Positions 11,499-22,342 of a stretch of 23,358 bases of DNA are shown here, one piece after another (positions within the stretch are counted from its first letter, which is position 1; the number at the start of each line of letters is the position of its first letter). The stretch spans positions 1-23,358 of IMG/VR virus record IMGVR_UViG_3300044631_000020, one strand, 5' to 3'. The notes below the pieces were generated by a model. That model was not told the DNA's origin and made no database searches. It was given only the letters and a program-made list of their open reading frames with translations. This DNA comes from a virus. The position numbers were made by a program, and so were the translations under genes.

Positions 11499-11526
11499 AT
11501 TCTAGCGAGTTGCTAGATGTTGTCAA
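11499..11526 (-). promoter_or_regulatory. leftward early promoter
   Basis: On the minus strand TTGACA (11526-11521) is followed after 16 bases by TAGAAT (11504-11499). The -35 is perfect and the -10 is 5 of 6 against the sigma-70 consensus. It points to the leftward operon starting at 11435. Operators O1 (11501-11517) and O2 (11523-11539) lie on top of the -10/spacer and -35, so a bound repressor would block polymerase. Confidence 0.7.
11501..11517. promoter_or_regulatory. operator O1
   Basis: TCTAGC-GAGTT-GCTAGA, a perfect 6-bp inverted repeat with a 5-bp spacer. It covers the spacer and -10 of the leftward promoter. Confidence 0.68.
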
Positions 11527-11539
11527 GCCCTTTGCTAGA
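11523..11539. promoter_or_regulatory. operator O2
   Basis: TCAAGC-CCTTT-GCTAGA, the same 17-bp design with one mismatch in the left half-site. It covers the -35 of the leftward promoter and starts 22 bp from O1, about two helical turns. Confidence 0.62.
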
Positions 11540-11576
11540 AATATTTTCATAGGTGTTTTCCCTATTGCCAAAAGAC

Positions 11577-11593
11577 TCTATCAATGTGCTAGA
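11577..11593. promoter_or_regulatory. operator O3
   Basis: TCTATC-AATGT-GCTAGA, the same half-sites with one mismatch. It is embedded in a second inverted repeat GACTCTA-N9-TAGAGTC (11574-11596). It ends 11 bases before the regulator ATG and lies over the likely rightward promoter, so binding here would give autorepression. Confidence 0.62.
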
Positions 11594-11604: not shown

Positions 11605-11823
11605 ATGAACACACAAATACCACCAGACGAGCGCCGACAACTGGCAGAAAAAGTTGGCATCAATGAACAGTATCTTTACCAGTGCCTGACGGGCCGGCGA
11701 GAGATGTCAGCTTGGGAGGCTGTTCGGGTAGAGCAGCAGACCGAGGGGCGGGTTACTCGGCAGATGGTGTGCCAGAGCAGTTGGCAGTCTATCTGGCCTG
11801 AGTTGGTGGAGATCAAAGCATGA
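11605..11823 (+). CDS. Cro/YdaS-like HTH transcriptional regulator
   Basis: 72 residues. A helix-turn-helix occupies about residues 9-40 (RRQLAEKVGINEQYLYQCLT, then GRREMSAWEAVRVEQQTEGR), followed by VTRQMVC and a short WP-containing tail. 'LAEKVGIN..YLYQ.LTGRR..S...AVR.E..T.G.VTR' is the pattern of small YdaS/Cro-type phage regulators. The gene sits immediately right of three operators and reads away from the leftward operon, the position of cro in lambdoid phages. It probably binds TCTAGC-N5-GCTAGA. No ribosome-binding site precedes the ATG, so translation may be leaderless. The stop overlaps the primase ATG. Confidence 0.8.
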   Translation: MNTQIPPDERRQLAEKVGINEQYLYQCLTGRREMSAWEAVRVEQQTEGRVTRQMVCQSSWQSIWPELVEIKA

Positions 11824-13877
11824 CTAACCTAACAACAATATTCCCCAACGGCTTCGCGGCTGCCATAGAGAGCCAAGACCTGATCAACCCAGAAGAAGGG
11901 TTCAGGAAGCACTGCGAGGCGAGTGGCCTGCTGGTCAAAGAGATTATTGCAGACGGTGAAATTCATCGTGTGGCGCATGTGTCTTCTAAGAAGGGTGCAT
12001 TGGATGGTTGGTACATTTTGCACTCCAGCGGCAAGGTTCCTGTGGGCATTGCAGGGTGCTGGAAAGAGCCTGTGTTTGAAGTCAAGTGGGTGGCAGACAC
12101 TGGCAGGCAGATGTCGTTCACTGAGCGCTTTGAGCATGACAAGTGGATCGCTGAAGTCAAGGCCAAAAAGGAAGCTGACAGGCTGGCTTCTCAGGCCGTG
12201 GCAGCAGAAAGGGCAGAAGATGAGGTTGGGACGTATGCAGATGCGTCTGATGACCATCCATACCTAGTCAGGAAGCACATTGGCGCTCACGGGATTAAGA
12301 TTGACAGGGCAGGCAGGCTCGTTGTGCCGGTCATTGATCAGGGTGGGGAAATCCTGAGTTACCAGACCATTGATGCAGATGGCAACAAGCGGTTCCTAAA
12401 AGGTGGCAAGATTGAAGGTGGGTTTTATGAGTTGCGTGGCAACCGCAAGATCGTGTTCATTGGTGAGGGGTTTGCCACATGCGCATCGATCCATGAGGCG
12501 ACAGATTACACCGTGTTGGTGGCGTTTGACTGTGGCAACTTGGCAAAGGTGGCCAAGAGCGCCAAAGAGATGTTCCCAGGTTCAAAGATCATCATCGGCG
12601 CAGACAATGACCAGTTCACGGAGGGGAACCCTGGTGTCACCAAGGGCAGGGCTGCGGCGGCACTGGTGTTTGGGGAAATTGTGTACCCATCATTTGGGGA
12701 CTCGGACATGGTGGACAACAAGCCAACAGACTTCAACGATCTACATTGCCTGCAAGGTCTGGATGCCGTCAAAGAACAGATTGAGCGCGTAGCTGGCCCA
12801 ATGCGGGACAAACTGGCGTTTGAGTTCTCAAGGATTGATAGCCTAGAACTCACTCAAATCAACTGGATCGTGGATGACTACATCGAAAGCGACAGTTTGG
12901 CGCAAGTGTTCGGTGACCCTGGCGGTGGTAAGAGTTTTGTCAGCATTGACCTAGCCTGTTGCGTGGCCACCGGACGCGCATGGCATGGCCATGAAGTCAA
13001 GCAAGGCTCGGTGTTCTACATCGCAGGCGAGGGGCACAACGGCTTGGCCAGAAGGTTTAAGGCGTGGCAGTTGGGCAATAGCCAAACCCTTGATGGCGCA
13101 CCGTTGTACAAAAGCCACCGTGCGGCGCAGCTGTATGACGCAACAGAGGCGGCAGTGGTGGCCGAAGCCATCAAAGAGTTGTCACAGCAAGCTGGCACAG
13201 TGCCATCCATGATCATCATTGACACCTTGGCCAGAAACCATGGGGGTGACGAAAACAGCACTCAAGATATGAATGCGTTCATTCAACACCTTGATGTGTA
13301 TCTGCGCCAACCATGGAAATGTTGCGTCTTGGTGGTTCACCATTCAGGCGTGGCAGACAAGGATAGGTCAAGGGGTAGCACGGCATTGAAAGGTGCGCTT
13401 GATGCTGAGTACCGTTGCCAGTTGGATGCGGGAACCAAAACCATAGCCTTTGAATCCAAAAAGATGAAAGATGCAGAAATGCCTGCACCTAAGAATTTCC
13501 AGATCACACAAGTTGATCTGCCCATCCAAGACAAGCACGGCCTGCCAGTAAAAGGCGCATATTTGACCGCCGTAGACATCAGTGGGCTAATGGGTAACAT
13601 CCAAAAGCGGGTGGTTTTGTCAGGCAACCAGCGCATTGCTTTGAACAGTTTGGTGGCCATTGAAGTCAAACGGGCAGCAGATGGCATCGAGGGCTTTGCC
13701 GCCATGGTGGACTACGACGAATGGCGTGATTCAGCCAAAAGCCATGGTTTGAATGCTCGGCGGTTCAAAGAATCCATTGAAGCATTGGCTAAGAAAAACA
13801 TGGTTTTGGAGAATTCTGGTGTGTACCGAACTGTACCGAAAAGTACCGAAATCGGTACAGAACGTACAGAGGCTTGA
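11820..13877 (+). CDS. replicative primase-helicase (Toprim + RepA-like ATPase)
   Basis: 685 residues, coupled to the regulator by ATGA. The first 130 residues resemble the N-terminal DNA-binding part of phage primases (GWYILHSSGKVPVGIAGCWK). Toprim lies at about 165-310: VVPVIDQGGEILSYQTID, then FIGEGFATCASIHEA (E216) and IIIGADNDQ (D262, D264), with DFND near 304. A RepA-like AAA ATPase follows: Walker A GDPGGGKSF at 365-373, YIAGEGHNGLARRF, Walker B MIIIDTLARN and VVHHSGVADKDRSRGSTALK. It should prime and unwind DNA at the phage origin. The last 19 codons (VYRTVPKSTEIGTERTEA) are made of the GTACCGAA iterons that continue past the stop, so the origin overlaps the gene end. Confidence 0.88.
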   Translation: MTNLTTIFPNGFAAAIESQDLINPEEGFRKHCEASGLLVKEIIADGEIHRVAHVSSKKGALDGWYILHSSGKVPVGIAGCWKEPVFEVKWVADTGRQMSFTERFEHDKWIAEVKAKKEADRLASQAVAAERAEDEVGTYADASDDHPYLVRKHIGAHGIKIDRAGRLVVPVIDQGGEILSYQTIDADGNKRFLKGGKIEGGFYELRGNRKIVFIGEGFATCASIHEATDYTVLVAFDCGNLAKVAKSAKEMFPGSKIIIGADNDQFTEGNPGVTKGRAAAALVFGEIVYPSFGDSDMVDNKPTDFNDLHCLQGLDAVKEQIERVAGPMRDKLAFEFSRIDSLELTQINWIVDDYIESDSLAQVFGDPGGGKSFVSIDLACCVATGRAWHGHEVKQGSVFYIAGEGHNGLARRFKAWQLGNSQTLDGAPLYKSHRAAQLYDATEAAVVAEAIKELSQQAGTVPSMIIIDTLARNHGGDENSTQDMNAFIQHLDVYLRQPWKCCVLVVHHSGVADKDRSRGSTALKGALDAEYRCQLDAGTKTIAFESKKMKDAEMPAPKNFQITQVDLPIQDKHGLPVKGAYLTAVDISGLMGNIQKRVVLSGNQRIALNSLVAIEVKRAADGIEGFAAMVDYDEWRDSAKSHGLNARRFKESIEALAKKNMVLENSGVYRTVPKSTEIGTERTEA

Positions 13878-14009
13878 TGTACCGAAGCGTGTACCGAAAT
13901 GTACCGAAACGTACCGAAATGTACCGAAGCAAACCCCCTGTGGTGTACCGAAACGTACCGAACGTGTCTATAGACACGTTCAGGTTCGGTACAAAAAGGG
14001 TTTCGGTAC
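13823..14009. repeat. GTACCGAA iteron array, candidate replication origin
   Basis: Ten exact GTACCGAA copies begin at 13823, 13833, 13843, 13879, 13891, 13901, 13911, 13921, 13945 and 13955. Two exact inverted copies (TTCGGTAC) lie at 13985 and 14002, and a one-mismatch inverted copy at 13851. Most neighbours are spaced exactly 10 bp, one helical turn, as expected for cooperative binding by an initiator on one face of DNA. The array runs over the 3' end of the primase-helicase gene and into the 174-bp gap before RusA. That position next to the replication gene makes an origin the leading explanation. A regulatory array is the alternative. Confidence 0.7.
13960..13981. repeat. perfect 22-bp palindrome in the iteron array
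   Basis: The half GAACGTGTCTA (13960-13970) is followed directly by its exact reverse complement TAGACACGTTC (13971-13981). It begins at the end of the last direct iteron (13955-13962) and is followed by the inverted iterons, so it marks the point where iteron orientation flips. Confidence 0.75.
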
Positions 14010-14051: not shown

Positions 14052-14414
14052 ATGGGGATGGTGGCCATGATTGAAGTGGAAATGGACATGAAAATTGTGT
14101 CAGTGGCCAACATGCGGTTGCATTGGGCGGCGAAAGCTAGGCTGACCAAAAGTCAGCGACAAAAAACCAGAAACGCGCTGGCGGCTGTTGCGCAGTCTTT
14201 TGGTGTGGAAGTGCTGCCAGTGACCGTTGTGCTGACTAGGGTGGCTCCAAGGCGCTTGGATGGGGATAACCTTCAGTCTGGCTTCAAGGCCGTGCGTGAT
14301 GGCGTTGCTGATTGGCTTGGCGTGGATGATGGCAGTGGTTTGATCGATTGGCAGTATTGTCAGCGGTCTAGCGGCCCGAAGGTTTACAAGGTTGAGATCG
14401 AAGTGATAACATGA
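14052..14414 (+). CDS. RusA-like Holliday junction resolvase
   Basis: 120 residues. The core RRLDGDNLQSGFKAVRDGVA then DWLGVDDGSG matches the RusA signature: D70-G-D72-N73 with a following Lys79, and DD92-93. RusA cleaves Holliday junctions symmetrically as a dimer. MRLHWAAKARLTKSQRQKTR is the usual basic N-terminal segment. The first 13 residues are Met/Val-rich and the start is uncertain: ATG 14052 (AGGG 4 bases upstream) or ATG 14067 (5 residues shorter) are both possible. It follows the iteron array and precedes TerS, consistent with resolving replication or recombination intermediates before packaging. Confidence 0.82.
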   Translation: MGMVAMIEVEMDMKIVSVANMRLHWAAKARLTKSQRQKTRNALAAVAQSFGVEVLPVTVVLTRVAPRRLDGDNLQSGFKAVRDGVADWLGVDDGSGLIDWQYCQRSSGPKVYKVEIEVIT

Positions 14415-14498: not shown

Positions 14499-15011
14499 GT
14501 GACTGAAAACTTGGTGTCAGAGATGACAGTGCAAAGAGAAGGCCCAGGCCGTCCGGCCTTGTTTCCGGCAGAACACACCGTTTGGCAAAATATCCTTCTT
14601 GGCATCTCAGAAGGTAAAAGTCTAAGCAGCACACTTCGAGCCGAAGGGATGCCCAGTTACTCACTGGCGCGTCAAATGATTAAGAACAATCCAGAGTTCA
14701 GGGCGGCTTACGAAAAGGCCGTAGAAGACCGCGCAGACCGTTTGGCAGAGGAAATCATTGAGTTGTCAGACAAAGAGTTGCCTGATGGCTTAGAAGGCCC
14801 TATGGCTAGTGCTTGGGTTCAACAGAAACGATTGCAAGTTGAAGCGCGCAAATGGGTAGCTGCAAAACTTAAACCTAAAACCTATGGTGATCGCATTGAC
14901 GTGGCCGTTACTGATCACAGGATTAGCGTGATGGATGCGCTGACTCAAGCCAAACAACGTGTGTTGATGGATGACAGTAACGTCATGGATGTTGATGCAA
15001 AGGAAGCGTAA
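14499..15011 (+). CDS. terS: terminase small subunit
   Basis: 170 residues from GTG 14499, with AGGAG 7 bases upstream. An N-terminal HTH-like region (EGKSLSSTLRAEGMPSYSLA, then RQMIKNNPEFRAAYEKA) is followed by a long helix (EDRADRLAEEIIELSDKELP) and the typical TerS block LQVEARKWVAAKLKPKTYGD. It recognises the packaging site and loads the large subunit, which follows after 333 non-coding bases. The C-terminal 30 residues (VMDALTQAKQRVLMDDSNVM) are probably the TerL-interaction tail. The gene follows RusA after an 84-bp gap. Function is well supported by motif and by adjacency to TerL. Confidence 0.85.
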   Translation: MTENLVSEMTVQREGPGRPALFPAEHTVWQNILLGISEGKSLSSTLRAEGMPSYSLARQMIKNNPEFRAAYEKAVEDRADRLAEEIIELSDKELPDGLEGPMASAWVQQKRLQVEARKWVAAKLKPKTYGDRIDVAVTDHRISVMDALTQAKQRVLMDDSNVMDVDAKEA

Positions 15012-15149
15012 TTGTCGCCCAATGGCCAAAATTTGTACAATTACGCGCACGCGCATGCGAGTTGCGCAGACGCAACGAAAAGAAGGCTCGGCAAGCAGAA
15101 AAGTGCAGGCTACTTAATACAATGACCATTATGTTAAGTTGACCCTAAG

Positions 15150-15238
15150 TTATCCACAGAAAAAAGAATGACAAAGTATTACAGTTTAAGTTATGCACAG
15201 GTAATTGTGGACAAGTGTGCATAACTGCCTGTGGACAA
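15150..15238. promoter_or_regulatory. cluster of five DnaA-box-like sites
   Basis: TTATCCACA (15150-15158, +), TTATGCACA (15191-15199, +) and TGTGCATAA (15216-15224, reverse of TTATGCACA) fit the TTATNCACA consensus exactly. TGTGGACAA at 15206-15214 and 15230-15238 are the reverse of TTGTCCACA, one mismatch. The two forward sites lie in a repeated AAGTTATNCACAG block. Five sites in 89 bp is far above chance and resembles a bacterial oriC. Confidence 0.72.
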
Positions 15239-15265
15239 GGCAAATTCCCACCCGCTGGCCGCGGT

Positions 15266-21716: not shown

Positions 21717-22342
21717 GTGGGATTATGTTATCTTTTGTTGGCGGGGCTAGTGGTGGGCCAATTATTGGCGCCGCTTATCAAGGCGGTTTTTTTGCCGGTC
21801 AAATCTCGACTGCTGGTAACGGCATAGCAGATTACAACCTTGTGGTTGGCCCAAAGTCTTCCGCACAAAGTGTAAGCAAAAAATGGAAAACAACTAATAC
21901 GACTACAGCGGGTACAAGTTCTGTAATTGATGGCCCCGGCAACAGCTCAATAATGAATAACGCCTCGCATCCAGCAGCGGAGTATTGTGAAGGCTTAAGC
22001 GTTGGCGGCTTTAGCGATTGGTATTTGCCAGCAAAAAATGAATTAGAAGTTGTGTACTACAACCTCAAACCATCGGGGACAGGCAACAATACTTCTTCTG
22101 GAACTAATACTAACGCTGTTCCAAGTCGAGGCAGCAATTACACGTCTGGAACACCATCACAAACCTCTGCAAGTGATTTCCAAGCAGGCGGCACAAACGC
22201 ATTTTCAACTGTGGCTTATTGGTCTAGTACCGAAGGCTCTGTAACACTTGGACAAGTTCAAAACTTTACTAATGGCAATCAATACAATACCTATAAAAAT
22301 TATGATAATTATGTTCGGGCAGTTCGCAGAGTAGCGGTTTAA
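21713..22342 (+). CDS. DUF1566 lectin-like tip protein
   Basis: 209 residues. MSGIMLSFVGGASGGPIIGA is followed by the DUF1566/Lcl C-terminal-domain pattern: ADYNLVVGPK, AAEYCEGLSVGGFSDWYLPA then KNELEVVYYNLKP, VAYWSSTEGS and VQNFTNGNQYNTYKNYDN then YVRAVRRVAV. The GFSDWYLPAKNEL and YWSSTE blocks are diagnostic for DUF1566-type domains, which are used as adhesins. Ser/Thr/Gly/Asn-rich loops lie between. It is likely the receptor-binding tip for the preceding anchor gene. The last 30 codons are Asn/Tyr-rich (AAT, TAT), resembling the variable ends of lectin-like proteins. Confidence 0.78.
   Translation: MSGIMLSFVGGASGGPIIGAAYQGGFFAGQISTAGNGIADYNLVVGPKSSAQSVSKKWKTTNTTTAGTSSVIDGPGNSSIMNNASHPAAEYCEGLSVGGFSDWYLPAKNELEVVYYNLKPSGTGNNTSSGTNTNAVPSRGSNYTSGTPSQTSASDFQAGGTNAFSTVAYWSSTEGSVTLGQVQNFTNGNQYNTYKNYDNYVRAVRRVAV

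Follow-up and report, generated by a model that had tools for sequence, protein, structure and literature searches.

The helicase of the alpha protein of satellite phage P4 is of the SF3 type. Alpha combines a ring helicase with a Toprim-type primase and a winged helix that binds the origin repeats, and both unwinds and primes the DNA (PMC4234260). The IncQ plasmid RSF1010 carries iterons and small hairpins (ssi), the latter used for priming, and encodes a RepA helicase, a RepB' primase and RepC (PMC4234260). In the archaeal plasmid pRN1, the orf56 repressor is accompanied by orf904, a primase-helicase with a C-terminal winged helix-turn-helix (wHTH), and the stem-loop origin is located just downstream, with a stem that is kept in structure and not in sequence (PMC4234260). 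In iteron plasmid origins and the RepA_N origin of the Vibrio PLE, a cognate initiator binds repeats arranged in tandem (PMC7145576).

The window analysed here is a virus record of 23,358 bp (IMG/VR IMGVR_UViG_3300044631_000020). It encodes a primase-helicase on the plus strand (11820..13877), in which matches to Toprim_3 (residues 212-313; E 3e-9) and to an AAA_25/RSF1010-RepA-like helicase (residues 334-512; E 1.7e-38) are followed by a predicted C-terminal winged helix (about residues 601-668; coding positions 13620..13823, plus strand), the proposed iteron reader. No SF3/D5 helicase model matched the protein, and a PDB profile search with 62 relatives recovered the RSF1010 RepA helicase (1g8y/1nlf; E 6.6e-8) as the only solved relative. 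The C-terminal domain is modelled with winged-helix topology (pLDDT 70-83), the nearest PDB folds are mostly winged helices, and the predicted recognition helix (about residues 646-658) differs among the three iteron types distinguished below (A, NARRFKES; B, KSNRFREV; C, ARNRFWDA). The equivalent domain of the L180 family is modelled with a pLDDT of 87, and since the PDB fold search yielded weak winged helix-like matches (TM <0.5), its assignment as a winged helix is tentative.

As in P4 alpha, a Toprim-type primase and a predicted ring helicase occur in one protein, in which a winged helix would read the iterons, as the domain model and its co-switching with the iteron word suggest. The helicase has an AAA_25/RecA fold resembling RSF1010 RepA instead of being SF3. 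We read this as P4 alpha-like logic built on an RSF1010 RepA-type helicase, whereby initiator, helicase and primase would be a single protein. RSF1010 itself is resembled in the putatively hexameric RepA-type RecA-fold helicase and in the combination of iterons with a hairpin. However, three proteins are involved there and one here, the primase is of the Toprim type and not RepB', the iterons are about 8 bp long, and the iteron reader is a predicted wHTH fused to the helicase, not RepC, whose model matched none of the ten window proteins scanned. The gene order of pRN1 (small regulator, primase-helicase with C-terminal wHTH, stem-loop kept in structure) is likewise shared, with the origin status being predicted here; pRN1 incorporates an archaeo-eukaryotic primase (prim/pol) and an SF3 helicase and has no iterons, whereas Toprim, AAA_25 and iterons are found here. 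The window system lacks a defining feature of each of the P4 alpha, RSF1010 and pRN1 families.

The first gene of the operon encodes a YdaS-like HTH regulator of 72 residues (11605..11823, plus strand). Upstream of this gene (11501-11593), the heptamer TGCTAGA occurs at 11511, 11533 and 11587, with an inverted copy at 11501, and these repeats are probably the operators of the regulator. A RusA-like resolvase (14052-14414), and then the terminase genes, are encoded 3' of the iteron array, while a DEAD helicase, a Cas4-like exonuclease, a DUF669 SSB-like protein and Sak4 are encoded on the opposite strand.

Ten exact direct copies of the iteron GTACCGAA (plus strand, 13823..13962, starting at 13823, 13833, 13843, 13879, 13891, 13901, 13911, 13921, 13945 and 13955) and two exact inverted copies (minus strand, 13985-13992 and 14002-14009) occur within 187 bp (13823-14009), together with the degenerate copies GTACCGAT (13851-13858, minus strand) and GTACAGAA (13855-13862, plus strand). 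Exact searching of the window thus returned the same ten direct and two inverted copies as an earlier, sequence-only reading of this DNA. The direct copies are spaced at 10, 10, 36, 12, 10, 10, 10, 24 and 10 bp, and six of the nine spacings are therefore exactly 10 bp, in agreement with the mostly exact 10-bp phasing that had been claimed. The array also begins, as was stated there, inside the primase-helicase gene, and iterons write the last codons of this ORF, the product of which ends in VYRTVPKSTEIGTERTEA. One further exact copy is present in the window (position 22227), outside the array, and in seven longer relatives (28-38 kb) all exact copies are confined to one array. When up to one mismatch is allowed, the window contains 23 matches against a shuffle mean of 10.9 (0/100 shuffles reach 23), and the commonest 7-mer within 260 bp is present in thirteen copies, against two to three when 600-bp stretches from downstream of the gene in relatives are shuffled (60 shuffled stretches). 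The array is almost certainly not a product of chance. Among cellular genomes, the only exact triple-iteron match was a short GCTTCGGTAC tandem in Halocatena, which was taken to be unrelated.

Phased short repeats adjoining a putative initiator gene are a feature in common with iteron plasmids and the PLE, but the initiator families differ, and the initiator proposed here is itself a helicase and primase. Unlike in P4, the gene for the proposed initiator runs at its 3' end into the iterons, and the array encloses a hairpin. Iteron origins in general have an adjacent AT-rich unwinding element, whereas none was found beside this array, with 27 % of random stretches being equally AT-rich. The GC skew, which the sequence-only reading had put forward as a check, is positive throughout the array with no change of sign and provides no support for an origin.

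The hairpin, which the earlier reading had missed, is a perfect 22-bp palindrome, GAACGTGTCTATAGACACGTTC (13960-13981), positioned between the direct and inverted copies and starting 83 bp past the primase-helicase stop codon. Comparison across the window family shows that it is maintained by compensatory change: in fifteen hairpin forms nine base pairs are retained, 91 % of cells are paired, both-sided changes occur in 7/9 pairs, and covariation is 0.499, against 0.192 after shuffling and 0.14 or less on sliding. The stems vary between families, while the centre is usually CTATAG, CTTTAG, CTTAG or CTTAAG. When folded as single-stranded DNA, the flanking direct and inverted iterons pair and lengthen the stem (-23 kcal/mol; z -4.65). 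That the structure is retained in spite of sequence drift suggests that the element is recognised in its hairpin form, and by analogy with the ssi sites of RSF1010 and the stem-loop of pRN1 we infer that it may serve in priming or helicase loading.

The array and its architecture are conserved among the relatives. The sequence-only reading had held that close relatives with the primase but lacking the array would speak against it; among window-family loci whose primase gene is complete at the 3' end, 125/126 have the array, the exception being a truncated locus. Using a cut-off of at least five copies of a 7-mer within 260 bp, at or past the primase stop (shuffles reach two to three copies), arrays were distinguished in 204/280 loci surveyed, 190 adjoining the stop and 14 past inserted genes, and in 46/68 relative clusters (90 % identity). 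With two exceptions, the array start in the 46 clusters lies no more than 85 bp upstream or 72 bp downstream of the stop codon, and over the clusters 57/164 same-strand iteron spacings are exactly 10 bp. The anatomy that recurs in these 46 clusters consists of iterons overlapping the stop of the AAA_25 primase-helicase gene or directly following it, then the hairpin, then inverted iterons, and is found in cultured phages of Alteromonas, Idiomarina, Salicola, Roseobacter and Vibrio. More than twenty different iteron words occur among the relatives, and even distant ones, at about 32 % identity, retain this layout while using different words (GGTTCA, GGTACA, GGGGACA and GGCTGGAAA). Other N-terminal domains also occur with the layout: p101 of Rhizobium phage 16-3 (Prim-Pol and AAA_25) is associated with a CGTGACA array, Vibrio phage 1.076.O (DnaB-N and AAA_25) with GGACA words and a hairpin, and Roseobacter phage CRP-811 with a CTACAAA array and a AAACCCTTTAGGGTTT hairpin. 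An array likewise follows the equivalent Toprim-AAA gene of the 37-kb Methylomagnum plasmid pRS11DPr4. On the same plasmid, more than thirty copies of ACCTCGCGG, the word of the iterons after its Toprim-AAA gene, are found at exact 18-bp spacing (14658-15250) inside an annotated 265-aa 'hypothetical protein', and this ORF may be an amplified iteron block. No array was detected in Achromobacter phage Mano or in MW202475, and none follows the gene in about twelve clusters whose C-terminal domain is of another kind (..GSRRNLIDGK..ENGWIVID..; L228, L233, L187 and relatives), so that replication in these clusters would start elsewhere or otherwise.

Three iteron types could be distinguished in the window family: type A (GTACCGAA), type B (GAACCGAA, TTACCGAA and TAACCGAA mixed) and type C (CGTCCGGA). 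The type A arrays of nine loci (L026, L034, L036-L038, L040 and L042-L044) are lengthened by an additional iteron block, and in several of these loci another inverted repeat (AACAAAGTTAC...GTAACTTTGTTAC-like) also precedes the standard array. A gene is inserted between the primase end and the array in L039, L040, L044, L056 and L069 (two genes in the last), with leftover iterons at the primase end in most of them; the inserted gene appears to be PAPS reductase-like, and this arrangement suggests that the array contains a hot spot for insertions.

The iteron word and the C-terminal domain switch together. Iteron type matches domain type in 125/125 window-family loci, and on a tree of residues 1-560 the iteron type requires sixteen changes, at least five to six of which are forced by well-supported branches. 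This scattering over the tree of the protein body indicates that the domain-iteron type has been exchanged repeatedly. Among pairs with a body identity of 0.95-0.985, residues 601-668 share an identity of 0.88 where the iterons are the same (n=1104) against 0.48 where they differ (n=578), while segments before residue 560 are equally identical whether the iterons agree or differ. Independent switches were observed in other families between L256 and L278 (GGTACCA/CGGTATC; body identity 0.94-0.98, domain 0.27), between L295 and L298 (GGGTACA to CGGTACA; domain 0.62) and between L180 and L186. The type C locus L069 was picked by its odd domain first, and its CGTCCGGA array was then found 1.36 kb downstream, past two inserted genes. 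When mapped over all families by Mantel correlation, iteron similarity and the C-terminal segment show a weak partial correlation of 0.12 (25/1000 permutations), which is not peaked at this segment, and the case rests on the close-pair swaps. The exchange of domain and word as a matched pair suggests that the domain reads the iterons, and the C-terminal winged helix (about residues 601-668) is the likely iteron reader. The sequence-only reading expected a phage origin with its own initiator, which fits these comparisons well, and of its two candidates the primase-helicase is favoured, though through this C-terminal domain and not the N-terminal region that it had considered. On this evidence the array is probably the replication origin, or the initiator-binding core of one, with the primase-helicase as its putative initiator.

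The same domain could instead bind the array in a regulatory capacity, in operon repression or the control of copy number or downstream genes, with replication starting at a cluster of DnaA boxes that separates the genes for the small and the large terminase subunit (15150-15238; boxes at 15150 and 15191 on the plus strand and at 15206, 15216 and 15230 on the minus strand; AT-rich run to 15345). Five DnaA-like boxes, conserved in order and spacing, followed by a GC-rich (G-rich) block and the AT-rich run, are present in 83/96 window-family loci, and in the window lineage this cluster could act as an additional origin or be the true one. It was, however, not found in 64 other primase clusters, most of which keep the array and hairpin. 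Regulation is further at odds with a promoter scan in which no promoter-like site was detected at the array, with the position of the array downstream of the gene that would be regulated, and with the conserved hairpin adjoining the iterons, which is unexpected for a simple operator. We consider this explanation unlikely.

It is very unlikely that the array and hairpin act as a transcription terminator, or as an RNA element that closes the operon, with the match between domain and iterons arising from pure linkage. The hairpin does lie 3' of the gene, and the domain and array are contiguous in most loci and would recombine as a block, so that linkage contributes to the match. Nevertheless, no U-run follows the hairpin, which indicates that it is not an ordinary terminator; a terminator scan gave weak sites only, and an Rfam search returned no match. 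In 14/125 loci, none of them of type B, the array is more than 600 bp from the domain with genes between, and the types still match; these loci argue against linkage alone, which leaves unexplained the matches across 0.85-1.4 kb of inserted genes. Nor does it explain the L294/L298 pair, in which all iterons have changed to a new word with the spacing nearly unchanged.

The YdaS-like regulator, the other initiator candidate of the sequence-only reading, has a DNA-binding fold and the first place in the operon in its favour as an iteron-binding initiator or repressor. Its median identity to the window HTH is, however, 93 % where a phage has the iteron type of the window and 94 % where the type differs, and the TGCTAGA repeats upstream of its gene look like its own operators, which makes such a role highly improbable. 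RusA identity similarly does not differ between iteron types. Terminase-type genes often adjoin their site, and the terminase small subunit (TerS) gene lies about 490 bp downstream of the array in the window, yet a packaging (pac/cos) or partition site read by TerS or another protein is just as improbable, because TerS does not track iteron type (about 71 % identity both within and between types), the arrays of distant phages follow the primase-helicase gene and not the terminase genes, and an array is found on a plasmid without an annotated terminase.

If the array is an origin served by the primase-helicase, initiation might proceed as follows. The winged helix would bind the 10-bp-phased iterons that lie within the last codons of its own gene and next to them, and this binding would gather a ring of the RSF1010 RepA-type helicase at the array. 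The ring would then open the DNA and expose the hairpin between the direct and inverted iterons, which the Toprim primase domain may use for loading or priming. From conservation, architecture, co-switching and compensatory change, which the comparisons show, we infer that the protein binds and unwinds the DNA, that the hairpin is primed and that the array is active as an origin. As the array overlaps the gene end, the specificity domain and its target lie side by side and would be exchangeable in a single recombination event.

A search of the open-access literature found no description of an iteron-hairpin arrangement at the end of a primase-helicase gene. We lean, with some reserve, towards a widespread class of origin, in phages and now and then on plasmids, in which an RSF1010 RepA-type helicase is joined to interchangeable N-terminal domains (Toprim, Prim-Pol or DnaB-N) and to an exchangeable C-terminal winged helix whose iterons would be located where its own gene ends, with a neighbouring hairpin of conserved CT(A/T)TAG-like centre used for helicase loading or priming. 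Exchange of domain and word as a matched module would account for the more than twenty origin words and would probably set up compatibility groups among co-infecting phages. For most uncultured tailed phages no origin is known, and if this interpretation is true, origin, initiator and specificity domain could be located from sequence alone in a large phage group. The module would then be a compact one-protein replicon, and the natural domain and iteron swaps a ready set for studying how a winged helix selects its DNA word. On this reading, related phages would diversify their origins, perhaps as a way of avoiding cross-replication or parasites.
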